From contig JAUIHP010000018.1 in the NCBI GenBank assembly GCA_030431975.1, positions 1-64,000 on the forward strand: a stretch of 64,000 nucleotides of DNA. The letters are read 5' to 3'. Both the position numbers and the translations under genes were made by a program. The DNA is from a bacterium. Its GTDB lineage: Bacteria > Eisenbacteria > RBG-16-71-46 > CAIMUX01. Each line of letters begins with the position of its first letter. Position 1 is the stretch's first letter. Shown here one piece after another: positions 11,917 through 44,353 of this stretch. The notes under the pieces are model-generated. The model saw nothing but the letters and a program-made list of their open reading frames with translations. It was not told the DNA's origin and ran no database searches.

Positions 11917-12014
11917 GCCCCGATTTCCGGGGCACGTCCGCTATCCTGTCCCCTCAACAACGGACGGCCTCGCACCGATCTACTAGAAGGAGTGGGTGCG
12001 CCCCGACGGCGCAC
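11917..12014 (+). promoter_or_regulatory. Two perfect hairpins in the carbamoyltransferase leader
   Basis: Hairpin 1: GCCCCG, loop ATTTC, CGGGGC at 11917-11933. Hairpin 2: GTGCGCC, loop CCGAC, GGCGCAC at 11996-12014. An AGAAGGAG lies at 11985-11992 just before hairpin 2. Hairpin 1 could end the epimerase transcript, although no T-tract follows. Hairpin 2 is 55 nt before the ATG at 12070 and could control expression. Confidence 0.4.
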
Positions 12015-12069
12015 TGTAATCAAAGTAGGCGGGCCTCATCGGGGCTGCGGGAATCAGCACGGATTGAAA

Positions 12070-13833
12070 ATGATCGTACTTGGCATCTCGGACAGCAGCG
12101 TATGTGGCGGCGCCTCCATCAGCATCGACGGTCGGGTGGTGACCTCGGTCAACGAGGAACGGCTCGATCGCCAGAAACTCTCGACCGGTTTCCCCCGACT
12201 CGCGATCACGCGTGTGCTCCAAGAAGCCGGACTCGAGGCATCGCAGATCGATCGGGTTCAGGTTTCCGACAACCACAACTACTTCAAACCGGAGTCGTCC
12301 TACTGGCAGGGCTGGCTCATCGACCACGCCAACAAGAAGAAGGAAATGGTCGCAACCATCTCCTCTTCCGTTTCGTCGGTCATCGGTAACAGCGATCTCG
12401 TCCAATCTGCCTATTACAAGCTGAAGCGGAACATCACGAAGAAGCGTCCGGAGCAGTTGCGTGCGCTTCTGCGATCCGACTTCGGTCTCACCTGTCCCGT
12501 CCAACACATCGACCACCACTTCTGCCATGCAACCTCCGCCTACTACACGGCGGGATTTCCGGAGTGCACGGTCATCACACTGGACGGCGGCGGCGACGGT
12601 CTGTGCTCACGCGTCTACCGCGTCCGCAACGGCATCTTCGAATCGCTGAACCATCTGGGAAGCTATCATTCGATCGGCAACTACTACGCCTACGTGACCA
12701 AGATCTGCGGCTTCACCGCACACAAACACGAAGGCAAGATCACCGGCCTGGCCGCCTTCGGCAAGCCGATCTATGCCGACATCATCAAGCAGATGGTGGC
12801 CTTCGACGGTGAGCAGATCCGCAATCAGGGGAACGCCTACTACTGGTCCGCGGTGAAGAAACTGACCGCCGCTCTCCCCGCAAACTTCGAGATCAAAGAT
12901 CTTGCCGCAAGCATGCAGACCGTCCTCGAGGACGTGGTCGTCGACTACTGCCGTCACTGGACACAGCAGTCGGGGATCGGACGCGTCGCGCTGGCCGGTG
13001 GCGTGTTCGCCAACGTTCGTTTGAACCAGAAGATCCACGAGCTCGACTGCGTCGAGGACATCTTCATCCACCCGGGTATGGGAGACGAGGGACTGTCCTT
13101 CGGAGCCGCACTCACTCCGGACATCCTTCCGGAAGGACATTGCCCACCCGTCGTCGATGACGTCTACCTCGGCCCGACGATTCGCACCGAGGAAGTCGAG
13201 GAAGAGATTCGCAGTCGAGGATTGGGATTCGAGAAGCATGACAACCTGGCGGCACAGATCGCTTCGTTGTTGGCGCAGGGACATGTCGTCGCGCTCTGTG
13301 ACGGAAGAATGGAGTACGGCCCGCGAGCCCTCGGCAACCGTTCGGTGCTCTATCAACCCAATGACCCCTCGGCCAACGACTGGCTGAACAAGCACCTTGC
13401 CCGCACCGAGTTCATGCCGTTCGCCCCGGTCGTTCGGGAAGAGAACGCAGATCTCTGCTTCCACAACATGGACGGAGCCCGCGATGCCGCCCGCTTCATG
13501 ACCATCACCTTCGATTGCACCGATCACATGAAGAAACTGTGCACCGGAGTGGTCCACGTCGACGGCACCGCGCGTCCGCAGATCATCCGCCGACGAGACA
13601 ACGAGCTCTACTACGACATCGTCCACGAGTACGAGAAGCTCACCGGCAACCCCGCCATCGTCAACACGAGCTTCAACGTGCATGATGAGCCGATCGTGTG
13701 TACTCCGAAGGATGCGCTGAACGGATTCATCGACGGAGACCTCGACTATCTGGCCGTTGGCGGGCTGCTCGTCGAAGGAGCGAATGCCCAAAACCGGCAG
13801 AGAGTGATCCCGGAGACGGCCGACGCGGTGTAG
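12070..13833 (+). CDS. Carbamoyltransferase (NodU/CmcH/TobZ family)
   Basis: 587 residues from ATG 12070. It transfers a carbamoyl group from carbamoyl phosphate, via an adenylate, to a hydroxyl of a sugar or small molecule. Visible: N-terminal MIVLGISDSS, the metal-binding HIDHHFCHATSAYY segment, TLDGGGDG, AGGVFANVRLNQ (ASKHA-like fold), and the C-terminal YrdC-like-region motifs MEYGPRALGNRS and NTSFNVHDEPIVCTP. An in-frame GTG at 11992 would add 26 residues unlike the family and run through a hairpin, so I start at 12070 although its SD is weak. Context implies decoration of a surface polysaccharide. Confidence 0.95.
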   Translation: MIVLGISDSSVCGGASISIDGRVVTSVNEERLDRQKLSTGFPRLAITRVLQEAGLEASQIDRVQVSDNHNYFKPESSYWQGWLIDHANKKKEMVATISSSVSSVIGNSDLVQSAYYKLKRNITKKRPEQLRALLRSDFGLTCPVQHIDHHFCHATSAYYTAGFPECTVITLDGGGDGLCSRVYRVRNGIFESLNHLGSYHSIGNYYAYVTKICGFTAHKHEGKITGLAAFGKPIYADIIKQMVAFDGEQIRNQGNAYYWSAVKKLTAALPANFEIKDLAASMQTVLEDVVVDYCRHWTQQSGIGRVALAGGVFANVRLNQKIHELDCVEDIFIHPGMGDEGLSFGAALTPDILPEGHCPPVVDDVYLGPTIRTEEVEEEIRSRGLGFEKHDNLAAQIASLLAQGHVVALCDGRMEYGPRALGNRSVLYQPNDPSANDWLNKHLARTEFMPFAPVVREENADLCFHNMDGARDAARFMTITFDCTDHMKKLCTGVVHVDGTARPQIIRRRDNELYYDIVHEYEKLTGNPAIVNTSFNVHDEPIVCTPKDALNGFIDGDLDYLAVGGLLVEGANAQNRQRVIPETADAV

Positions 13834-13843
13834 TCTCGTCGGG

Positions 13844-14974
13844 ATGTCCGACGCAGTCGACCCGAAGAGCCACGGTTCGCCCGAGAATCGTCGCGACAAC
13901 GCGAGCCTTTCCCTGGCGCTGGCGCTCGCCGAACGCATCCCCCTACCCGATGGTTACGAGTGGTCGGCCCTTCGCCTGGAAGACGCCGAAGAGATCGTCG
14001 CGCTCCTCAACGCACACTCCATGGAAACGATGGGGCGCAGCGACCGCAAGGAGGAGGACTTCCGCGCCGACTGGGAAGAGCCCGGAGTCGATCCCGGCGC
14101 CGACGGGGTTGTCCTTCGAACGAAATCGGGCCGGGTCGTGGGATACGAAGAGGTCTACGACAAGAATCGCCATGCGGAGCTCATCTTCTACGGCGGGATC
14201 GTCGACCGCGGCCATCGCACGCCGGAGCTTCGAAATGCGCTCATCGAGTGGATGCGGTTGCGTTGCGCAGAGCATGTTCGCGAGGCTCCCCCCGGCGTCG
14301 AGGTCAAGGCATTCACCGGGGTCGACTCAAGGGATGTTGATTCACGTTCGTGGCTCGAGACCAACGGTTTCGAATGCACGCGCGTTTTCCGCGTCATGCG
14401 AAAGGAATGGAGTCAGGATCCAAGTAGGGACACAGAGCGTTCGCTGGCTGCAGTCGGCTCCGAGTACAAGATCTGTGTGCGCGGTCACCGTGAAGAGATC
14501 GACGAGGCATTCCTTCGCCGCTTCTATCGTACGCAGTGGGAGGCGTTCCAGGATCACTGGGGCGCGCCCGTGCCACTGGATTCATCGTTTCAACGCTTCG
14601 TCCATCAGTTGGAATCGAAACTCGAGCGCGACGAAGCCCTTCTGACCTACGTCGAGTGCGCCGACGAGATCGTGGCCACCTGTTTGACCCTGCTTTCCAG
14701 TGAGTCCGATCCTGACGTCGCGTTTCTCGATCGTCTCGGCACCCTGGCCGAGCACCGTGGCAACGGCCTGGCCCGTGCTCTTCTGTGCGACGTGTTCGAA
14801 AGGACTCAGGCTCTGGGCAAGAAGGCGCTCGAGCTTTCCGTCGACAGCGACAGCCAAACCGGCGCGCCGCGCCTCTACGAAGGGGTCGGCATGGTGGAAA
14901 CGGAAAAGACCTTCGTCATGAGTCAGGTCCTGCGTCCGGGACGACCGCTCGGCCTCGAGGACTCTCCTTCGTAG
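13844..14974 (+). CDS. Tandem GNAT-fold N-acetyltransferase
   Basis: 376 residues with two GNAT-like halves: residues ~30-185 (WSALRLEDAEEIVALLN ... VVGYEEVYDK, degenerate acetyl-CoA loop) and ~200-365 (YKICVRGHREEIDEAFLRRFY ... LGTLAEHRGNGLARALL, a good acetyl-CoA motif A, then ELSVDSDSQTGAPRLYEGVGM). The second half is probably catalytic. Begins 10 bp after the carbamoyltransferase stop, so co-transcribed. Substrate unknown; similar two-domain proteins include mycothiol synthase-like enzymes. Confidence 0.88.
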   Translation: MSDAVDPKSHGSPENRRDNASLSLALALAERIPLPDGYEWSALRLEDAEEIVALLNAHSMETMGRSDRKEEDFRADWEEPGVDPGADGVVLRTKSGRVVGYEEVYDKNRHAELIFYGGIVDRGHRTPELRNALIEWMRLRCAEHVREAPPGVEVKAFTGVDSRDVDSRSWLETNGFECTRVFRVMRKEWSQDPSRDTERSLAAVGSEYKICVRGHREEIDEAFLRRFYRTQWEAFQDHWGAPVPLDSSFQRFVHQLESKLERDEALLTYVECADEIVATCLTLLSSESDPDVAFLDRLGTLAEHRGNGLARALLCDVFERTQALGKKALELSVDSDSQTGAPRLYEGVGMVETEKTFVMSQVLRPGRPLGLEDSPS

Positions 14975-14997
14975 CCCGAACTCTTCACGACGATCAG

Positions 14998-16218
14998 CTA
15001 GTGTGGTGACGAACTTTGTGAATAGACCGTGCTCGACCCCGACACGTCCGATTCGAGCCGGCCGTACAGCTCGTGAACCCGCTCCCGAAAGACCGGCCAG
15101 CTGTGTTCTCGGCGGATCAGCTCGCGGGCCTTCGCGGCCAACGAGCGTCGCCAGGCTGGATCGGACAAGAGACGCGCCATGACCTCGGCATAAGCGTCGA
15201 CTTCGGGAGCGGCCAGGGCCGCTTCTTCTTCCGTCACGACCTGTGTGTGTGTCGGTAGGTCCGTAGCCAGCACCGGGACTCCCGAGTCGAGATAGCTGTA
15301 GACCTTCATCGGCGTGTTCTCACCCTGGGTCCTTGGGGACGCCAGAACATCGGCCTGCGCCATGAGCGGTCCCAGGTGCGAAACCGGTTGCGGCCCGACG
15401 AAGTGGATCTCCGATTCGAGACCATCATTCGAAACCCGCTGTCGGTACTCGGCCACGTGAGCGGCCGCTCCTCCAACGACGACCAGCGCTGTCTGTCCGT
15501 CCTCGGCGTGGACTTTCCTGAACGCGTCGTAGAGCAGATCGATTCCCTGGTAGGGTTCGAGATTCCCGATGTAGAGAACGATCCGTCGTCCTTCGAGTCC
15601 AAGGCTCGAACGGATCTGGAGAACCTCGTCTGCCAAGTCCCCGTCATCTTCCGTCGCCGATGTCAGCAACGAAACGTCCTTGAGAACGACGATGTCCTTC
15701 GCGCCGGCCTCCCTCGCTTCCGTCGCCAGGCTCTCGCACATCGGAACGACGACCCGAGCCGATCGAATGGCGTCGTTCTCGATCCAGGCGAGCCCCTTAA
15801 GGAGCCCGGAAAGGGCCGGGAACCGATCGGCCATCTGACCGGTCATCGACGAGTCCATGTCGTAGACGTAGGGAACTCCGTAGAGGGCGCCCAAGTGTCG
15901 AGCCAGGAAAACGCCCTCTTCGGTCGCGTGAATGATGTCCGGGCGAAGTTGGTGGACCAGCCGCGCCGCGCGACCCGCCAGAAACAGGTCCGTGTAGACC
16001 TTACGGAATGAGAATCCGGGCCTCACGTTTTCGACCCGCGGGAATGGCTGAACGCGATCAATGACCAGGCCGGGAAGTTCGATGTCCTCGCCTTCGGGGA
16101 AGGTCAGAAGGTGAACCTGATCCCCTCTCTCACTGAGCGCACGCAGCAGCAACCGCACGGCGATCGGTGTGCCGCGTTCCTGGTAGAACGGCTGCGGAGC
16201 GAGGAAGAGAACCCGCAC
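14998..16218 (-). CDS. Glycosyltransferase family 4 (GT-B)
   Basis: 406 residues. N-terminal Rossmann half starts VRVLFLAPQPFYQERGTPIAV, typical of GT4; the C-terminal half has IVLYIGNLEPYQGIDLL and PRTQGENTPMKVYSYLDSGVPVLATDLP (nucleotide-sugar donor site, ExxxxK-like region). The GTG at 16218 is the start: AGGGAG lies 10 nt upstream and the beta-1 strand begins there; a longer frame upstream lacks family similarity. Converges with the GNAT gene (23-bp gap) and follows another GT4 on the same strand. Confidence 0.93.
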   Translation of the reverse strand: MRVLFLAPQPFYQERGTPIAVRLLLRALSERGDQVHLLTFPEGEDIELPGLVIDRVQPFPRVENVRPGFSFRKVYTDLFLAGRAARLVHQLRPDIIHATEEGVFLARHLGALYGVPYVYDMDSSMTGQMADRFPALSGLLKGLAWIENDAIRSARVVVPMCESLATEAREAGAKDIVVLKDVSLLTSATEDDGDLADEVLQIRSSLGLEGRRIVLYIGNLEPYQGIDLLYDAFRKVHAEDGQTALVVVGGAAAHVAEYRQRVSNDGLESEIHFVGPQPVSHLGPLMAQADVLASPRTQGENTPMKVYSYLDSGVPVLATDLPTHTQVVTEEEAALAAPEVDAYAEVMARLLSDPAWRRSLAAKARELIRREHSWPVFRERVHELYGRLESDVSGSSTVYSQSSSPH

Positions 16219-16402
16219 AGTAAAAGAACTCCCTGGTTTCGAATTCGTCCGTGAGGAGCCGGCCGTTCCGTGGACGGGCCACACCGGGACGGTACCTTCC
16301 GGACACGGCCCCTTCGGATGATGAGACCTTCCGATGATGGCCGCGCTCCGCGATCCTGTCCACCCGTCGGGTCGGCGCACTTCCGGCGCAGACCAAGTCC
16401 CT

Positions 16403-17686
16403 CTAATCGTATCGTCCGGAATGAGGGGAGTGTCGAGTCTCGGGCTGGGCGGCGTTCAGAATTCGCTCGGCCCGTTTCTCCCATGTGTACCTGCTGAGGA
16501 AGAGTTCCAGTGCGGAAGCTCCGAGTCGCTCTCGTCGGCCGGGATCCTCGATCAACTCCCGAAGCTTGGACTCCCAGTCATCCGGATCGCCGGGAAGGGC
16601 GAGCACCGCGTTCTCCCCGTCCTCCGCGACTTCCTCGATGGCCGGTAGGTCGGAAACGACGATGGCCTTTCCCGCAGCCATGTATTCGAAGAGCTTGAGC
16701 GGTGACATCCATTTGACGGTGTCGAGCCCCCCTCCACCGGCAACGGCCACAGACCTTGCGTAGGGCGCGAGAAGAATGTCGAAGGACTGCCGATAGGCAT
16801 CCAGGCGAGCGGGAGGCAGGAAGCCGTGCAGGCGAACATTGCCCGCAGCCTTCGCCTCCGGCGACCATCTCGCAACATCCTCTTCCGTCCCGCCGACGAG
16901 GTGGAAATCAACCTCCGGCAGGCGACGCGCCAGCTCGAGAATGAGGTCGATACCTCTCCCGTCGTAGAGATGACCGACATAGCCGATGCGGAGCCGACGT
17001 TCTCCCGGCGCCGAGTTCCCGTCGAATGGCCCGCGTTCGGCAACGAAAGACGTGGCCACCTCAGCCGGCTGTTCGTGCTCGCTGTGCGTCGGGCCCTGGG
17101 CCCCGTCCCCGCGATTCGCCTGATGCTCGGACTCGATGCCGTCAACCGTCTCGTGCCCTCTGACAGGATCCGCTCCGTCCGGGGCTACGAAGATCTTGGA
17201 GGCCGGGACTCCCCGCTCCTCGACGTAGTGTGCCTTGAGCGCCTCTGTGATGACGACGTGAGTCCGAAGCTGCGGCGAACGGAGGAGCCACTCGTAAAGC
17301 CGGCGGCTGTTGCCTTTGCTCTCCGGGGTGTGCGACTCGTAGATGACCGGGATCCCGAGCGCGGCAGAAAATGCACTCGCGGCCAGCGACCGGGAAAAGA
17401 CGAGGTCGGCTCCCCTGCGACGGGCCCACCCAGCCGCCTGGACGGCAAAGGTTGCCTTGGTCGCGAAGATCGGCCAGGGATTCAGTTTTTCCAGGTTGAA
17501 GGTCGAAGGGACGCCGTAGAATTCGAAGGGGCTGCCGTCGATCACGATTTCCCGTTGGGGAAGCCGGCGTACGACCAGCGTGACCTCATGCCCGAGCGCC
17601 GCCAGAGCGGCACTCATCTTCATGACGTGGACGCTGTTGGCGGCCTTTGACGGTACAATGGAGTCTGCGATATAGACGATGCGCAT
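16403..17686 (-). CDS. Glycosyltransferase family 4 with a hydrophilic insertion
   Basis: 427 residues from ATG 17686 (GGGGAG just upstream; MRIVYIADSIVPSKAANSVHVMKM is a GT4 N-terminus). C-terminal donor half: RIGYVGHLYDGRGIDLILELA and KLFEYMAAGKAIVVSDLPAIEEV. Between the halves about 55 residues (from VRGHETVDGIESE to NSAPGERR) form a polar, glycine/glutamate-rich segment not expected in the fold. Head-to-head with the deacetylase across about 200 bp. Acceptor and sugar unknown. Confidence 0.93.
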   Translation of the reverse strand: MRIVYIADSIVPSKAANSVHVMKMSAALAALGHEVTLVVRRLPQREIVIDGSPFEFYGVPSTFNLEKLNPWPIFATKATFAVQAAGWARRRGADLVFSRSLAASAFSAALGIPVIYESHTPESKGNSRRLYEWLLRSPQLRTHVVITEALKAHYVEERGVPASKIFVAPDGADPVRGHETVDGIESEHQANRGDGAQGPTHSEHEQPAEVATSFVAERGPFDGNSAPGERRLRIGYVGHLYDGRGIDLILELARRLPEVDFHLVGGTEEDVARWSPEAKAAGNVRLHGFLPPARLDAYRQSFDILLAPYARSVAVAGGGGLDTVKWMSPLKLFEYMAAGKAIVVSDLPAIEEVAEDGENAVLALPGDPDDWESKLRELIEDPGRRERLGASALELFLSRYTWEKRAERILNAAQPETRHSPHSGRYD

Positions 17687-17889
17687 TCGCTCCCCAGTGC
17701 GATGGGATGAATTCAGGCTCTTGGTTCCCAGTCGGACAAGCTGCCTCTTCCGTCCAGGATTCTCAAGCCTGATCGCCCGGGATGTCCGCCCAAGCCGAGC
17801 CGCCGCAGGGCTCACGAACTAAAGAAGTCTCGAATGGTGGACGATTTTTCCCTATGGGAAGGCGCCTCGAAGCCAACCCCGGAGCCGTC

Positions 17890-18786
17890 ATGGATCGCCT
17901 ACTGCGCCTTTGGACACCGGTCCTTCTGTATCACGGAAGCTACCCAGAAGTGCCGCCGGAGTTGGGCGGCAAGCTTCACAATGTCGCTCCGGATCAGCTC
18001 GTCCAACACACCCGCTATCTTCGCAAGCACGTGCGATTCGTTCCCATCGACGAACTCGTCGCGGCGGAGAAACGTCACGGACTCGCTTCCATCACGTTCG
18101 ACGACGCCTACAAGAGTGTTCACGAACACGTCGCCGACGCGCTCATCGCCGAGGGAGTGCCGTTCACGATCTTCGTCAATGGTTCTTCCCTGGATGGCGA
18201 GATCCTTTGGAGAGACAAGGTTCGGATCGCCATCACCAATGGGTGGGTCGAGGAGTGCGAGGCTCAGCTCCCCGCAGGGATGAAAATTCGCAACCTCTCG
18301 TTCTACAAGTACACCAAGGATCCTCGCAACGACAGTGCCGCCGTTGACGCCGCCATCACCCGCTTCCTGGAGGCGAAGGGCGCCTTGGCCTCCCTGCAGC
18401 CGGCGACGATCGACCGTCCGGAAGCGTTCATCGATCATCCGCTCGTTACCTACGGAAATCACTCTCATCACCACTACGTGCTTTCGTCGCTGACCAAAGA
18501 GCAGCAGCGTGAGGAGATTCTTCGAACGGAAGCAACCCTGGATGGGATCCCGAACATCCGAAGGAGCCGAGTCTTTTCGATCCCTTTCGGAGAGCGGAAA
18601 CACTTCAATGCCGAGACGATCGAGCTATTGAAGGAGCATGACTTTTGCGCAGCCCTGCTCAGCCGTCAGCGGTTGAATCTTCGCCGCAGGAAGCTGGACG
18701 GACTTCCGGTTCTGGAACGCTTCATGCCCGACGACGATCTGCTCGGACCTCAGCTCATTCACTTCAAGCGGCTGGCCAGCGCATAG
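17890..18786 (+). CDS. Polysaccharide deacetylase (NodB/CE4 fold)
   Basis: 298 residues. Removes acetyl groups from N-acetylated polysaccharides. Motif 1 is ITFDDAYKSV (catalytic and metal Asp); motif 2 is YGNHSHHHYVL, giving the H-x-x-x-H metal ligands; VFSIPFGERKHFN corresponds to motif 3. I prefer the ATG at 17890, with GGAG 5 nt upstream; an ATG at 17854 and a longer frame from 17782 overlap the neighbouring GT4 promoter. No signal peptide is visible, so it may act in the cytoplasm or during export. Confidence 0.92.
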   Translation: MDRLLRLWTPVLLYHGSYPEVPPELGGKLHNVAPDQLVQHTRYLRKHVRFVPIDELVAAEKRHGLASITFDDAYKSVHEHVADALIAEGVPFTIFVNGSSLDGEILWRDKVRIAITNGWVEECEAQLPAGMKIRNLSFYKYTKDPRNDSAAVDAAITRFLEAKGALASLQPATIDRPEAFIDHPLVTYGNHSHHHYVLSSLTKEQQREEILRTEATLDGIPNIRRSRVFSIPFGERKHFNAETIELLKEHDFCAALLSRQRLNLRRRKLDGLPVLERFMPDDDLLGPQLIHFKRLASA

Positions 18787-37663: not shown

Positions 37664-38884
37664 TCAGCCGGCGACGACTTTGACCGTCTGGCCGATCTCC
37701 TGCAGAGCCGAACGCAACCGGTCGTAGTCCGGATCGCGCAGTCGGAACCACGTGTTGACGTGCCAGCCTTTCTCCAACGGTAGCGTGGCCGAACCAACGG
37801 TGGGCACTTCGTACTCGTAGATCATGTCGCCGAACTTCGAGCGGATGTCATCCAGTCCGTGGTAGGCGCGAACGCGACCATCCTGACTCGGTCGAATCTG
37901 GATCGCGCCGGTGGCGTAGCGACGAGACAGCTTCGTTTCGACAGGGCGACCAATGATTCCCCGAGACCAGTTCAGATAGATGTCGGATTCGTTGGCGACG
38001 CGGTAGAGGTCCCAGATCATCTCCCCGGCCGGGCGGGCGCCGATCTCGGAGAACCGAAGACCGCGGTTGCCGAAGAACCACTCCATGTGAGTCGCCGACG
38101 TTCCAAGGTCGAGCAGCTTGTTGACCCGCGCCCCAAGCTCGCGAAGCTCTTTGTAGCCGGTAGCGTCGATCCGGTTGGTGTGTGCGATGATCGGTGACAC
38201 TTCCCGACTTTCCAAAGCCGCAAGACAACCGGGGTAGTAGTGGGAGATGAAGTCCTGCGCGACCTCGCCGTTCACCGTCAGCGTGTCGTAGAACCCCTCA
38301 TGCCCATCGATGAACTCCTCCAGCAGAACCGAGTCGGCTTTGCGCGACTTCATCGTCTCCAGAAGAGTCTCCAACTCAGCCTTGGACTCGACACGAGTCG
38401 TCCCCAGGGAACCAAAGCCGGCCCGAGGCTTGACGATGATCGGGTAGCCCAAACGCTCGGCGAAGCTGCGAACGTCGGCTTCATTCTTGGGGACCTGCGA
38501 CTCCGCGCAGGGCACGCCCTTCGACCGAAGGAAGTCCTTCATGGCCGACTTGTCACGACAGAGCTCCGCGCTCCGGACCGACACTCCGGGGATGCCGAGG
38601 CCCTCGCGTAGCTGGGCGGCGGGCGTGACCATGGGTTCGTCGATCGTCTCGACACGGTCCACAGGATGCGCCCGGTCGATCTTGCGCGCGGCCGCCAACA
38701 TCTCCAACGGATCGAGAACGTTTCTCACCTGCACGTAGGCATCGAGGTATGGGCGAACCTCACGGGAGAGACGCTCCCGCGGATTGAACCCGATCGAGGT
38801 AACGGTGCAGCCGAGGTCTTTCAGCGCCCGCAGGAACTGATGGTTGTACCGGTGCGTGTCCGGAGCGAGGAATAGAATGTGCAT
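37664..38884 (-). CDS. ATP-grasp ligase (carbamoyl-phosphate-synthetase-like fold)
   Basis: 406 residues. N-terminal Rossmann-like MHILFLAPDTHRYNHQFLRALKDLG; ATP-grasp core with AERLGYPIIVKPRAGFGSLGTTRV (phosphate loop and Lys), LLEEFIDGHEGFYDTLTV and HMEWFFGNRGLRFSEIGARPAGEM (metal Glu/Asn region). Such enzymes form an amide bond between a carboxylate, activated as acyl phosphate, and an amine; which ones is unknown. First of a cluster with a GT4, an adenylating enzyme and a second ATP-grasp protein. Converges with the EAL gene 5 bp away. Confidence 0.9.
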   Translation of the reverse strand: MHILFLAPDTHRYNHQFLRALKDLGCTVTSIGFNPRERLSREVRPYLDAYVQVRNVLDPLEMLAAARKIDRAHPVDRVETIDEPMVTPAAQLREGLGIPGVSVRSAELCRDKSAMKDFLRSKGVPCAESQVPKNEADVRSFAERLGYPIIVKPRAGFGSLGTTRVESKAELETLLETMKSRKADSVLLEEFIDGHEGFYDTLTVNGEVAQDFISHYYPGCLAALESREVSPIIAHTNRIDATGYKELRELGARVNKLLDLGTSATHMEWFFGNRGLRFSEIGARPAGEMIWDLYRVANESDIYLNWSRGIIGRPVETKLSRRYATGAIQIRPSQDGRVRAYHGLDDIRSKFGDMIYEYEVPTVGSATLPLEKGWHVNTWFRLRDPDYDRLRSALQEIGQTVKVVAG

Positions 38885-39027
38885 CCCGGCACTTTAGCCT
38901 AGTCCCGGCGTCAAAGGCCAGATTCTGCAAGACGGCCGGCCGCCGCTTGGACCGCGCCCAGCTCTGTTGGGCGTCTGGCTTCGGACCTTCCAAGAGCCGG
39001 GACCGTCGACAGGGCGTCTAGGAGGCG

Positions 39028-40290
39028 CTACGCCTTCGGCGGCCACTCCGGGACATCCTGCGCGGAGGTTCGGTAAATCTGGTGGATCCGGTCCATGCAC
39101 TGACGACGCCCGTACCGGGCCTGCACCAGCTTGGCTGCGTTCTGCCCCATGACCGCCCGCTCTGCCGGGCGAGACGCCAGGGACTGGATCGCGTCAGCCA
39201 GCGCCGAGGGATCCGCGGGGGGAAAGAGGAGGCCGTTGACTTCGTGCTCGACGGCCTCGGGAATGCCGACCGCATCCGAACCCACCACCGGAACTCCGCT
39301 CGCCATCGCTTCCAGCACGACGTTGGGGAGACCGTCCCGGCCTCCCGTCTTCGCGACGACCGACGGAGCCAGGTAGATATCCGCACGTTCGTACTCGGGC
39401 GGCAGGTTGGATTGTTCCTGGTATCCGAGAAGCGTGATGGAGTCGCCGAGTCCGTTCGCTTCGATCGTGCTCACGATCTGCTCGCGCATCGGCCCCTCGC
39501 CCACGATCCGGTAGGAGAATGGAATGCCCCGCTCTTTGAGCAGAACGCACGCATCGATCGCGTAGTGAAACCCTTTCGCTTCGGTCAGGCGGCCGACGGA
39601 AAGCATGTGGATACGGGTCTCGCCCTGAGTCCCACCGTTGGACTTGGGCTGGAACCGTTCGAGGTCGACGCCGTGCGGGTGGTAGTGAACCTTCTTCATG
39701 GTCTCGGGAGAAAACATCTTCCCGAAGTAAACGATGTTGGCCTGGTTGCAGGTCAGGACGAAGTCCGCCCCCTCGATGACGGTGCGCAAAGCGGCGTCCG
39801 TCTGGTGTGCTTTGTGATAGATGTCTGCCCCCGCGTGGGCCCAGGTCACGAAGGGAATTCCCGTGTAGCCGGAGATCCACCAGGAGGCGCGCGCCGGCAA
39901 GCTCGCCCAGAAAGCCATCAGACGATCGACGTCCTGTCCGGCCAGCTGCGTTGCGAAGTAGCAGCACTTCGGAAAGATGCCCAGCGTCTTGATCAGGATC
40001 TTGGGAGAGCTGGCGGTGTCGGCGATCGCTCGCGTCAAACTGGAAAAGAACCACCCCGGCTTCGTCACCATCGCCTTGAGCATTCCGCCGATGACCGGTA
40101 GCGAGACGTACGGCGCGCTGCGAACGCGGAAGCGGCTCTTCAGCTGCCGAGCTCCTTCGGCGTCGGTCAAGGTAGCCCGAAGACAAAGAAGCTCGACGTC
40201 GATTCCCCGGTCCGCCATTTCATTGACTTCAGCCAGCCCGAAGGTTCCGGACTGATGGGGAATGTCGGTGAAAACATAAACCTGTTTCAG
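39028..40290 (-). CDS. Glycosyltransferase family 4, apparently started at CTG overlapping the upstream stop
   Basis: 420 residues. GT4 motifs: KQVYVFTDIPHQSGTFGLAEV (N-terminal strand), HMLSVGRLTEAKGFHYAIDACVLL and PSVVAKTGGRDGLPNVVLEAMASGVPVVGSDAVGIPE (donor site). The first recognisable strand is encoded from 40290, where CTG sits in CTGA overlapping the CapK stop; GAGGAG lies 8 nt upstream. No ATG, GTG or TTG fits nearer the fold start; the next in-frame ATG would delete the first beta-alpha unit. An upstream frame to 40677 overlaps the CapK gene and reads as non-protein. Co-transcribed with CapK. Confidence 0.85.
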   Translation of the reverse strand: MKQVYVFTDIPHQSGTFGLAEVNEMADRGIDVELLCLRATLTDAEGARQLKSRFRVRSAPYVSLPVIGGMLKAMVTKPGWFFSSLTRAIADTASSPKILIKTLGIFPKCCYFATQLAGQDVDRLMAFWASLPARASWWISGYTGIPFVTWAHAGADIYHKAHQTDAALRTVIEGADFVLTCNQANIVYFGKMFSPETMKKVHYHPHGVDLERFQPKSNGGTQGETRIHMLSVGRLTEAKGFHYAIDACVLLKERGIPFSYRIVGEGPMREQIVSTIEANGLGDSITLLGYQEQSNLPPEYERADIYLAPSVVAKTGGRDGLPNVVLEAMASGVPVVGSDAVGIPEAVEHEVNGLLFPPADPSALADAIQSLASRPAERAVMGQNAAKLVQARYGRRQCMDRIHQIYRTSAQDVPEWPPKA

Positions 40291-41747
40291 GAGAGAGTCT
40301 CCTCGCCGCGGCTCGAGTTCGCTGCGCCCGAGTCTCCGGACGCCGGTGCCTTCTTCTTCCAAGTGTTCAGCTGATAGCGGAACTTGCCCGCAGCGGTCCG
40401 TGGGATCTCCTCGACCCAGGAGCAGTCGATGCGCATCTCCGACCCGAAGAAACTGTGCAGACGTTCGGTGACGACGCGAATGGCCTCGTCCAACGGTTCG
40501 TCCTGCGCGACAAGATTGACGGTGAGGTGGGCGCGATCGTCCTGAACGATCTGGCATTCCCGAACTCCGGGAAGTCCGCGAGCGATCGGATCCAGGCGCC
40601 CGACCGGTCTTCCGTCCGGCGCGTAGAGAACGTCGTCCATCCGTCCCGAGAGCGATTCCAGATGGTCCGTCTGCCAACCACAGGCGCAGTCCCCTGCGCC
40701 GGTCGAGAGCGTAGCGAGGTCACCGATCCGGTAGCGAACCAGAACCTGCACTTCGTTGATGAAGCCCGTTCCCACGACCTCTCCGACCTGACCACGTACG
40801 GGCTGGTCGTCGACCAGCGTCTCGAAGTAGCCGATCTCGTGATTGACGTGGTAGGTCCCCGACGGACACTGCCCGGCCCAGACGACGACCTCCGCCGAGC
40901 CGTACTGGTCGGCGACCGGACACCCAAAAGCCTGGCTCAAATGGTCGCGCTGAAAGTCGTAGACCTGCTCGGCAAAGGTGACGATGACCTTCGGCCGCAA
41001 CTTGTCGTAGCCCGTACGAATCGCGTACTCGGCCAGAACGTCGAGTGCTGAGGCGAAACCCAGGACCTCTTCCGGATCGATTTCGACCATCTTGTCCAGA
41101 TAGTGTTTGAGGTTCGCCTCCTCGAGGTGGACGTTCGAGAACATCCACTGCTTGTCCGCTCCGTTGTACTGCCAGAAGGGCGGGGTCTTCTTTTCGACGG
41201 GAACGACCGGACGATTGTGAAGCGAGACCCGCGGACGGTCCCGGTCGAGCCCCCAGTACCAACGCTGTCGCTCCTGAAATGCCCAGGTCCGCTGGTAGGT
41301 GTTCTTGTCCTTGATCATCATGAGCGGCTTGCCCGTGGTGCCGCTGGTGTGTCCGGTGAAGACGGCCGATCGGTCTTCACGGTACCGGTCGACGACGAAC
41401 TTCCAGGGATCGTCGCGAAGAGCCTGCTTCTCGGTCACCGGAAGCTTCTCGAAGTCGGCCATCGTCTTCAGATCTTCGGGGTGGAAGTCGAGTTTGCCCC
41501 AAGTCTCGCGGTAGTAGGGAACATTGGCGTAGGCATGACGGACGACGCCCTGCAACTTTTGCCACTGCCACTCACGAATCTGGTCGAGCGGCCAGGAATA
41601 GGATTCCTTCAGGCCATCGAGGAAGCGCCGGTGCTCGGCGCCGTAACGCCGTCGGCGAAGCACACTGCCGTAGGTGCTGACGAGAAGGCTTTGCAAGGGC
41701 GCCGGCAGCTTCTCGTAGATCTTGTAGAGCCGGGTCCCCGGAATCAA
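40287..41747 (-). CDS. CapK/PaaK-like adenylate-forming enzyme
   Basis: 486 residues, related to phenylacetate-CoA ligase and CapK. AMP-binding signature FTGHTSGTTGKPL at about 130-142, YGSAEVVVWAGQ, VRYRIGDLATL and the C-terminal GRMDDVLYAPDG then IPRTAAGKFRYQ, containing the catalytic Lys. Such enzymes activate carboxylates as acyl-AMP; in capsule loci they are thought to supply acyl groups to polysaccharides. The CTGA overlap links it to the GT4 downstream. Divergent from the ATP-grasp gene at 41979 across 231 bp. Confidence 0.92.
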   Translation of the reverse strand: MIPGTRLYKIYEKLPAPLQSLLVSTYGSVLRRRRYGAEHRRFLDGLKESYSWPLDQIREWQWQKLQGVVRHAYANVPYYRETWGKLDFHPEDLKTMADFEKLPVTEKQALRDDPWKFVVDRYREDRSAVFTGHTSGTTGKPLMMIKDKNTYQRTWAFQERQRWYWGLDRDRPRVSLHNRPVVPVEKKTPPFWQYNGADKQWMFSNVHLEEANLKHYLDKMVEIDPEEVLGFASALDVLAEYAIRTGYDKLRPKVIVTFAEQVYDFQRDHLSQAFGCPVADQYGSAEVVVWAGQCPSGTYHVNHEIGYFETLVDDQPVRGQVGEVVGTGFINEVQVLVRYRIGDLATLSTGAGDCACGWQTDHLESLSGRMDDVLYAPDGRPVGRLDPIARGLPGVRECQIVQDDRAHLTVNLVAQDEPLDEAIRVVTERLHSFFGSEMRIDCSWVEEIPRTAAGKFRYQLNTWKKKAPASGDSGAANSSRGEETLS

Positions 41748-41978
41748 TGCAACCTCTCCTCACGTCCGCAATCGGGCGGACCTTTTCGGGCAACCGGGGA
41801 AAGATCCCACACTGGACACAGGAGTCAACCCGAGGGACGAGCCCGCATGGGCCATTTCCCCCACTCCCTGCGTCCTACAGGTCATCGGCTTAGTCATCGG
41901 CCGTCGACGAATCGATCCTTTGATCCGGAGATGGAACTTCCGGCGGAAACGGCGGCGCCCGGCCGATAGAATGCTCGG

Positions 41979-43253
41979 ATGCCAAACGAAACGCCGATAG
42001 AGTCCGACGGAGGTTCGTCACTCCCTTCACGCGGAACCTCCGCCCCACAGCGGGCCGGGGTCGACCGACCGGCAGCCATCGTCCTGGGGCTTCACGGGAC
42101 CGGTCTCCGCACCGCACGCTGTCTCGCCGAAGAGGGCATCGAAGTCCACTCCGTCGCGCTCAGTCCGAACGAGTCCGGACGGAAGTCGAAGCTGGTCCAG
42201 TTCGAGGATCGCTTCGATCTCAGCTATGACGACGACCGCATCATCGACTGGCTCGCCCAACGCGCCGCGGCCATCGGCGGTCGCCCGGTCGTCTTTCCGA
42301 TCTGCGACGAACACGCCATCGCCATCGCCCGTCACCGGGACCGCCTCGATCCGGTCTGTCGAACGTTCCAGGCAAGTGCAGACACGATCGAACGCATCGT
42401 CAGCAAGGACGGCCTCTACTCCGCGGCCGAGGCCGTTGGAGCGCCAATCCCGCCGGCCGTGGTCGAACCGACCTTGGAAGAGCTCGACGAGTGGTGCCGG
42501 ACGAATGCCGCACCGTACTTCGCCAAGCCGTACTACCAGGGCTTGGAAGGTGCGGCTCTCGAAGAGAAGAACCGGGTGTTCTCGACCGCCGACGAGTTGC
42601 GGGACTTCGTTCGGGAACGCGGATCCCGAGCCCTCATCGTCCAACGGATGTTGCGAGGCGGGGACGGCTGGATCTTTGACTGCTACGGTTATTGCGACGC
42701 GAGTGGCCGCGTCGTGACCATGGCCTCCCATCGGCGCATCCGACAACTTCCCATCCACACCGGAACGACCTGTTACGGAGAAATCCCGGCGTCCCCGCGC
42801 AACCGGGGGCAGGAAGCGCTCTTCGAGTTGACGTCCCGGTTGCTGGACGGACTCGGTTACCACGGAATCTTCGGAATCGAGTGGCTGCAGGATCAGGAGA
42901 CGGACGAACTCTATCTGCTCGACTTCAACGCCCGTCCCTTCTCGACGGTCAACCATCTCAAGGATTGCGGGCTCAACCTCCCCTTTTTGGCCTACCGCGA
43001 ACTGACCGGCGAGGACATCTCGGGAACAGAGCGGACCCCGCACTTGACGCACAAGACCTGGATCGGCATGAATCGGGACCTGGCCGCGGTTCGAAAGAGC
43101 GGAGGCGGCGCCGGTGCTTTGATCCGGTGGATCGGAGAACTGGCGGGCGCCCGTTCCTATGCCTTCTTCACCTGGAGCGACCCCGGTCCCGGCCTTGACC
43201 AGTTACGTCGACTGTTCGGCCGCGTAGGACGCGGGGTTCGAGGCGAAACATGA
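41979..43253 (+). CDS. ATP-grasp ligase, second copy
   Basis: 424 residues. AAIVLGLHGTGLRTARCLAEEG begins the N-terminal Rossmann fold after a 30-residue leader; APYFAKPYYQGLEGAALEE carries the ATP Lys, ALIVQRMLRGGDGWIFDCYGYCD the second ATP-contact, and FGIEWLQDQETDELYLLDFNARPF the metal Glu and Asn. Distinct in sequence from the 37664 protein, suggesting another amine or carboxylate. The ATGA overlap at 43250-43253 couples it to the dehydrogenase gene. Confidence 0.9.
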   Translation: MPNETPIESDGGSSLPSRGTSAPQRAGVDRPAAIVLGLHGTGLRTARCLAEEGIEVHSVALSPNESGRKSKLVQFEDRFDLSYDDDRIIDWLAQRAAAIGGRPVVFPICDEHAIAIARHRDRLDPVCRTFQASADTIERIVSKDGLYSAAEAVGAPIPPAVVEPTLEELDEWCRTNAAPYFAKPYYQGLEGAALEEKNRVFSTADELRDFVRERGSRALIVQRMLRGGDGWIFDCYGYCDASGRVVTMASHRRIRQLPIHTGTTCYGEIPASPRNRGQEALFELTSRLLDGLGYHGIFGIEWLQDQETDELYLLDFNARPFSTVNHLKDCGLNLPFLAYRELTGEDISGTERTPHLTHKTWIGMNRDLAAVRKSGGGAGALIRWIGELAGARSYAFFTWSDPGPGLDQLRRLFGRVGRGVRGET

Positions 43254-44353
43254 GACCCACACCCATTCTCGTTCCCGCGGACTCGCGACCGCTGTTCGAA
43301 CGCGCCTCTGGTGGCGGTTCCACTCCCCACGACCTGGAGTGGCTGGATCACGGTCCCGAGTCGTCGGAGGGATCGATTCCGACACCGCTCGACTGGGTCC
43401 AATGTCATTACTACGACATCCACAGTCTCTCCTCTGCGGACAAGGTGAAGCGGCGCCTGGGACGACTGAGCGCGGAGTCTGCGTTTCGGGCCAAGCTGAC
43501 CCTTCCTGCGGACGGAGCGGGAGGCGCAGCGCAAGCGTTGTGGCTTTCGGAGCGCGTCTCGCTCAAACCCAAGGAATGGAAACTCTTTCTCGACGAGCTT
43601 CCGGATCTGAAGTGGATCTTTTCCCAACGGACGAGCTATCACCATTTGCAGCTCGACCTTTTCAAAGATCGGGGCATCGCTCTCAGCAACAGCGGAACCC
43701 TCGTTTCCCGCTGGGTCGCGGAGTTCGCCTTCGCCTGCATCGTTGCCGAAACGAAGAAGATTCCCCAACACGCTATGGAGCCGAGTTGGTTTGCCGCACC
43801 GATTGCCGGCGCCGGGTTCACGAGCCGGCGAGTGACGATTCTCGGAACCGGGAACATCGGAGGGCACCTCGCCGGGATGTGCCGCGGCGTGGGCATGAAA
43901 GTCACGGGCCTTTCGCGGAACCCGGAGCGGTTCGGCGCCGACCACGATCCCTATGACCGAATGCTCCACATCGACAAAGACCGGGTTCGCGCCATGGAAA
44001 CGTCCGACTTCGTCATTCTGGCCGTACCCTCGGCGGACGAGACCCAGCGAATCATCGGACGCGCCGAACTAGCCGCCCTGCCGCGTGGAGCCACGTTGAT
44101 CAGCGTGACCCATCCGGAAGTCATCGACCAGGAGGCCGTGTTTTCTTCGCTGCGTGAAGGGAATCTTGGCGGGGCGTACCTCGATCGGGTCGAGGCGCAA
44201 CGGGGCCGGCGTCAACCCAAGGTGCCCGGGCTGGTCGTGACCCACAACTCGCACGCGCATCTTCCGGAGAAGAAGGCGGCCGCCTTCCGGCGCTTCCTTC
44301 GGGGAGTCCAAGCCCTGCAGGAAGGAAAGGACCCTGCAGACCGCGTCGTCTAG
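43250..44353 (+). CDS. D-isomer-specific 2-hydroxyacid dehydrogenase, divergent
   Basis: 367 residues. The NAD domain is clear: VTILGTGNIGGHLAGMCRGVGMKVTGLSRNPERF (GxGxxG), DFVILAVPSADETQRIIG, then GAYLDRVEAQ and LVVTHNSHAHL with a possible catalytic His. The substrate Arg normally in a VNxARG-like motif is replaced by LISVTHPEVID, so substrate use is likely unusual. An N-terminal extension of about 70 residues (1-70) is unlike the family. Coupled to the ATP-grasp gene by ATGA, so it may act on a product or precursor of that ligase. Confidence 0.87.
   Translation: MRPTPILVPADSRPLFERASGGGSTPHDLEWLDHGPESSEGSIPTPLDWVQCHYYDIHSLSSADKVKRRLGRLSAESAFRAKLTLPADGAGGAAQALWLSERVSLKPKEWKLFLDELPDLKWIFSQRTSYHHLQLDLFKDRGIALSNSGTLVSRWVAEFAFACIVAETKKIPQHAMEPSWFAAPIAGAGFTSRRVTILGTGNIGGHLAGMCRGVGMKVTGLSRNPERFGADHDPYDRMLHIDKDRVRAMETSDFVILAVPSADETQRIIGRAELAALPRGATLISVTHPEVIDQEAVFSSLREGNLGGAYLDRVEAQRGRRQPKVPGLVVTHNSHAHLPEKKAAAFRRFLRGVQALQEGKDPADRVV

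Follow-up and report, generated by a model that had tools for sequence, protein, structure and literature searches.

Two coupled gene pairs of surface-polysaccharide type and an adjoining ATP-grasp ligase: probably a loose neighborhood and not a conserved pathway

The window analyzed here comprises the first 64 kb of contig C4 (GenBank JAUIHP010000018.1) in the draft genome, 6.19 Mb in size, of a bacterium assigned to the Eisenbacteria. At positions 37664 to 44353 it contains five open reading frames (ORFs), which encode two ATP-grasp ligases (ATP-grasp 1 and ATP-grasp 2), a CapK/PaaK-type adenylate-forming enzyme (CapK), a GT4 family glycosyltransferase (GT4), and a protein resembling D-2-hydroxyacid dehydrogenases (the dehydrogenase). 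All five are genuine and intact and lie at the coordinates given in a preliminary description of this DNA, which had suggested one pathway for them. They are probably a loose neighborhood of ordinary enzymes and not a conserved pathway, with two pairs of surface-polysaccharide type beside an unrelated stand-alone ligase. The families of the genes, their coupling, the gaps between them, the lack of conservation of the set, and the loci of the relatives are the observations on which this explanation is built.

The five genes are arranged as two coupled pairs plus ATP-grasp 1 (Table 1). On the minus strand, GT4 probably starts, as judged from the sequence, with a CTG that overlaps the stop codon of CapK (CTGA, positions 40287 to 40290) and has a GAGGAG ribosome-binding site upstream, in agreement with the coupling of an acyl-activating enzyme to a glycosyltransferase noted before. 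CTG is a rare start codon for a coupled pair. The TTG start codon of CapK is preceded by AGGAG. On the plus strand, ATP-grasp 2 and the dehydrogenase are joined by the ATGA overlap that had been described. GT4 and ATP-grasp 1 are separated by 143 bp on the minus strand, and convergent genes bound the stretch on both sides, with one for a GGDEF/EAL protein to the left and one for an ECF-type sigma factor to the right.

Conservation of the set was evaluated from three sides. Relatives of ATP-grasp 1 were obtained by a contig scan with an alignment, and the best 80 of 545 confirmed relatives were kept, so that rarer contexts may be missed. Their neighborhoods, reaching up to 10 kb in either direction, were searched with tblastn at E ≤ 1e-8 and again at 1e-10; a simple ORF picker, which chose the wrong strand in places, served for candidate finding only. 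None of the 80 ATP-grasp 1 loci contained the GT4, CapK, ATP-grasp 2, or dehydrogenase of the window. The dehydrogenase, CapK, and ATP-grasp 1 were likewise absent beside the relatives of ATP-grasp 2 (0 of 16 fetched loci), and the 36 fetched CapK loci contained no second member of the set save GT4s, aside from a marginal ATP-grasp match (E 8e-4) about 3.5 kb off in locus L233. Of the 49 genomes with an ATP-grasp 1 relative in which presence was counted, representing 50 of the 80 loci, three possessed CapK (E ≤ 1e-40) and two possessed ATP-grasp 2 (E ≤ 1e-15). Because no second member except GT4 accompanied the relatives in these 80, 16, and 36 loci, the genes are not kept together, and this is the outcome of a neighborhood comparison that the preliminary description itself had named as evidence against its single pathway. 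One conserved five-gene pathway was consequently rejected.

Table 1. Features of the five-gene stretch in window positions and, in the last row, loci of related ligases preceded by dtd
Feature	Position or locus	Strand	Remarks
ATP-grasp 1, L-amino-acid-ligase-like amide ligase	37664..38884	-	406 aa; stand-alone branch; domain, tree, fold, profile
GT4 family glycosyltransferase	39028..40290	-	420 aa; inferred CTG start; PF00534
CapK/PaaK-type adenylate-forming enzyme	40287..41747	-	486 aa; TTG start; motifs TSGTTGKP, YGSAEV, YRIGDLA, GKFR
Gap separating the two divergent pairs	41748..41978	.	231 bp; room for promoters, none shown
ATP-grasp 2, divergent, of the kind seen in exopolysaccharide loci	41979..43253	+	424 aa; profile comparison
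D-2-hydroxyacid-dehydrogenase-like protein	43250..44353	+	367 aa; catalytic Arg and Glu replaced
Window-branch ligases preceded by dtd	L097, L098, L100-L103, L107, L108, L112, L115		one of the ten cut by a contig end

The family assignments made before for the five genes agreed with their domain and profile matches, and all are known kinds of enzymes. ATP-grasp 1 matched PF02786 with 40.5 bits (cut-off of 19.8), and its AlphaFold2 model reached a predicted local distance difference test (pLDDT) score of 90.8. The best matches of this model in the Protein Data Bank (PDB) were the L-amino acid ligases BL00235 (3vot; Z 34.8, root mean square deviation of 3.8, 376 residues) and RizA (4wd3; Z 34.5), and the whole fold is also shared with BacD/YwfE (3vmm, 3wnz) at a Z of about 30. 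The ATP-grasp 1 profile matched RizA at 8.6e-26. The ATP-grasp active-site residues K152, E190, E268, E280, and R284 occupy invariant columns in 41 sequences, within a region that can be aligned to RizA; the alignment (A2) took in 40 of the 80 ATP-grasp 1 loci. Identity to RizA, BL00235, and BacD is, however, only about 20%, far below any curated cut-off, and ATP-grasp 1 differs from them by belonging to a phylum-spanning branch of its own. The fold model and the alignments suggest that ATP-grasp 1 is an L-amino-acid-ligase-like enzyme, predicted to form dipeptides.

Five further members of the ATP-grasp 1 family are encoded in the source genome, four of them in one locus on contig C22 and one on contig C17. 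Ligase A of the C22 locus is 47% identical to ATP-grasp 1 and has active-site columns in common with it. In a tree of 51 rows, from which an incomplete ligase of genome G041 was excluded, ATP-grasp 1 was placed in a 15-row clade (100/99) nested in a 23-row clade (97/97), which was the sister of a 24-row clade (99/89) holding ligase A. The 80 loci, 40 assigned by the tree and the remaining 40 by the best BLAST score, were thereby split between the window branch (33 loci) and the A branch (47 loci). At least one gene for a glycogen-synthase-like GT5 enzyme, a peptidase, an esterase, a RimK-like ligase, or a GCS2 protein was present in 41 of the 47 A loci versus 1 of the 33 window-branch loci, and none of these partners was found beside ATP-grasp 1 in the window. 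The window branch comes mostly from Planctomycetota and Acidobacteriota, as the sequence records are labeled. With this stand-alone habit of its branch, ATP-grasp 1 is therefore best regarded as a ligase standing alone, whose position behind the CapK-GT4 pair is a matter of chance.

Several observations were made on the ATP-grasp 1 family outside the window. In 10 of the 33 window-branch loci, mostly of Planctomycetota, dtd (D-Tyr-tRNA deacylase, PF02580) was located on the same strand at most 200 bp upstream of the ligase gene. The C22 locus (G000:C22:277166-283687, corresponding to L060:9164-15703) contains the four paralogous ligases around a GT5 glycogen-synthase-like gene, and relatives of this multi-ligase locus, found in several phyla (L116 to L172), also encode an S51-like peptidase, a PF00756 esterase, a RimK-like ligase, and a GCS2-CBS protein. 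The RimK-like ligase of the source genome (L249, G000:C22:234426-235661) is located about 43 kb from the multi-ligase locus, and the match contains a stop codon (TAA). On contig C17, the gene after the further paralog (L067:8339-10414) encodes a protein whose match to peptidase C58 is borderline (23.7 bits versus a cut-off of 23). The multi-ligase locus may have been described before, and the amidoligase survey by Iyer and colleagues (2009) would be the likeliest place. In the open-licence literature, as covered by titles and the beginnings of abstracts, no description of the five-gene set or of the multi-ligase locus was found.

The adenylation motifs of CapK listed in Table 1 are all intact and, together with similarity over the full length, connect the protein to the PaaK/CapK-type AMP-forming ligases. 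It differs from them in being remote from its closest PDB relatives, which are phenylacetate-CoA ligases (best E 4.9e-19), and in staying below every NCBIfam equivalog cut-off: the best NCBIfam match was the DVU_1553 AMP ligase (117.8 bits versus a cut-off of 300), which is family-like and indicates no equivalog, and the phenylacetate-CoA ligase model TIGR02155 gave 83.3 bits, its cut-off of 646.3 not being reached. The profile matches listed by Haft et al. 2006 (PMC1569441) include a "possible CapK protein," NE2015. CapK relatives at E ≤ 1e-20 were present in 25 of 47 genomes of the phylum, including the source genome, and those of the other genomes showed at most 34% identity. The partner protein GT4 matched PF00534 (Glycos_transf_1) with 130.5 bits (cut-off of 26.4). 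A GT4 was present in the fetched stretch of 25 of the 36 CapK loci, and 9 of the 36 had one on the same strand no more than 400 bp away, as scored with a profile of 11 sequences, 4 from the window and 7 from fetched loci, most of which loci were themselves among those scanned. Several of the CapK relatives were found together with GT4 within large glycan loci.

ATP-grasp 2 is divergent. Its only Pfam match was PF15632, with 24.5 bits below the cut-off of 29.1, and a single-sequence structure prediction was unusable (pLDDT of 36.8), so that a profile search was used instead. A profile of ATP-grasp 2 and seven relatives reached carbamoyl-phosphate synthase at 6.1e-21, and CPSase_L_D2 was matched by six of the eight members of this set. 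Matches at E ≤ 0.001 were present in 14 of 59 related genomes, with at most 30% identity where most of the protein was covered. The loci of the relatives carry GT4, flippase-like, acetyltransferase, and chain-length/export-like genes, several of these names having been assigned by eye. One of them, L240, encodes an XrtA-type polysaccharide deacetylase (375.7 bits versus a cut-off of 276.2), a PF13480 acetyltransferase, a GT4, and export-like proteins. ATP-grasp 2 can be aligned over its length to the ATP-grasp enzymes of such XrtA/exosortase-type exopolysaccharide loci (L240, L241), at an identity of 22 to 28%, and its partner in the window is a dehydrogenase, whereas the XrtA/exosortase-type loci pair the enzyme with an acetyltransferase and export genes.

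The dehydrogenase had been called "odd" and deserves this term. It matched the NAD-binding domain PF02826 with 85.4 bits (cut-off of 25.1) and shares this domain and the GxGxxG site with D-2-hydroxyacid dehydrogenases (3hg7, 1gdh) but differs from them at the active site. In the comparison of 17 of 19 loci (L081 and L083, which gave no tblastn match, were excluded), HP replaces the RG present in all 17 aligned homologs, so that the arginine of the RG motif, the catalytic arginine of this family, is lost; the position of the catalytic glutamate is occupied by glutamine. THN is found where the homologs possess TPH or similar, and the catalytic histidine can be aligned if a one-residue deletion is allowed. 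As a search anchor, the dehydrogenase gave only generic relatives, which occurred at E ≤ 1e-15 in 74 of 385 genomes, including the source genome, and the best match outside the source genome had 32% identity.

With reaction types that we take from their families, CapK would convert a carboxylic acid into an acyl-AMP adenylate and probably then into a CoA ester, and sugar transfer by GT4 would proceed with retention. In the other pair, ATP-grasp 2 would link an amine to a carboxylate via an acyl phosphate and would be made together with its divergent NAD(P)-binding dehydrogenase-like partner, while ATP-grasp 1 would couple amino acids via an acyl phosphate, apart from the pairs. The two pairs would most likely act on a surface glycan. 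Such a role is reasonable for them because the loci in which relatives of both CapK and ATP-grasp 2 occur are of exopolysaccharide type; the link to a surface sugar drawn in the preliminary description thus stands for CapK, GT4, and ATP-grasp 2, and a joint role of all five genes is not supported. A genome-wide look-up of Poly_export genes gave four in the source genome, on contigs C7, C10, C41, and C49, and none on C4 as the polysaccharide export gene of an XrtA-type locus; the pairs may act on a surface glycan made available by export systems encoded elsewhere in the genome. A second group of glycan-type genes is located in the window at positions 11992 to 18786 and encodes a carbamoyltransferase, a GNAT acetyltransferase, two GT4s, and a polysaccharide deacetylase. 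None of the five proteins had a PADLOC match, and a reading of the genes as a defence system was dropped for this reason.

Some observations weigh against a loose neighborhood. Divergent coupled pairs inside 6.7 kb are a hint of a joint function. A same-strand GT4 within 400 bp was missing from 27 of the 36 CapK loci, and the best relatives of CapK and of ATP-grasp 2 (39% and about 30% identity, respectively, over most of the protein) are distant enough that their context may not transfer to the window. The nearest genomes compared were of the same family (two genomes) or order and none of the same genus, and a young lineage-specific pathway would likewise show no conservation. The five genes could form one lineage-specific pathway to an aminoacylated surface glycan or a glycopeptide. 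An amino-acid or dipeptide group would be built by one ATP-grasp ligase or by both, CapK would activate this group or a different acid, and GT4 would attach the sugar. The tight packing with two translational overlaps, the intact adenylation motifs of CapK, and the L-amino-acid-ligase fold of ATP-grasp 1 would fit, but no member other than GT4 accompanies the relatives, and ATP-grasp 1 is set off by its gap and belongs to a branch that stands alone in other phyla, which makes such a pathway quite improbable. Its more specific form as a young pathway is still less probable: ATP-grasp 1, from its widespread but uncharacterized stand-alone branch, would produce a dipeptide or aminoacyl group, CapK would activate it, GT4 and ATP-grasp 2 would place it on a surface glycan, and the dehydrogenase-like partner lacking the catalytic arginine would act on a substrate without the usual carboxylate.

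Alternatively, a larger exopolysaccharide locus may have broken up in this genome and left the two pairs as a displaced fragment, with ATP-grasp 1 adjoining by chance. The large glycan loci around relatives of CapK and ATP-grasp 2, the glycan genes scattered in the window, and the export genes on other contigs are consistent with this origin, which is nevertheless unlikely: all five ORFs are intact, and no decayed genes or remnants of mobile elements turned up, although no dedicated search for them was made. That ATP-grasp 1 is a fifth ligase of the C22 multi-ligase locus, placed at a distance, would agree with its identity to ligase A and the common active-site columns, but the well-supported placement in a different branch and the near absence of the partner genes from that branch leave this explanation with very little probability. 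A loose neighborhood of two pairs and a stand-alone ligase thus continues to be the probable explanation.

The five-gene set itself matters little, beyond the caution that ligases adjoining one another in a glycan-rich genome do not have to share a pathway. Of more consequence is the two-branched family to which ATP-grasp 1 pointed. Genes of the one branch stand alone and, in Planctomycetota, often lie just behind dtd. Those of the other, which occurs in several phyla, belong to a locus that can hold as many as four paralogous ligases together with a glycogen-synthase-like enzyme, a peptidase, an esterase, and RimK-like and GCS2 ligases. This multi-ligase locus may merit more attention than the five-gene cluster.

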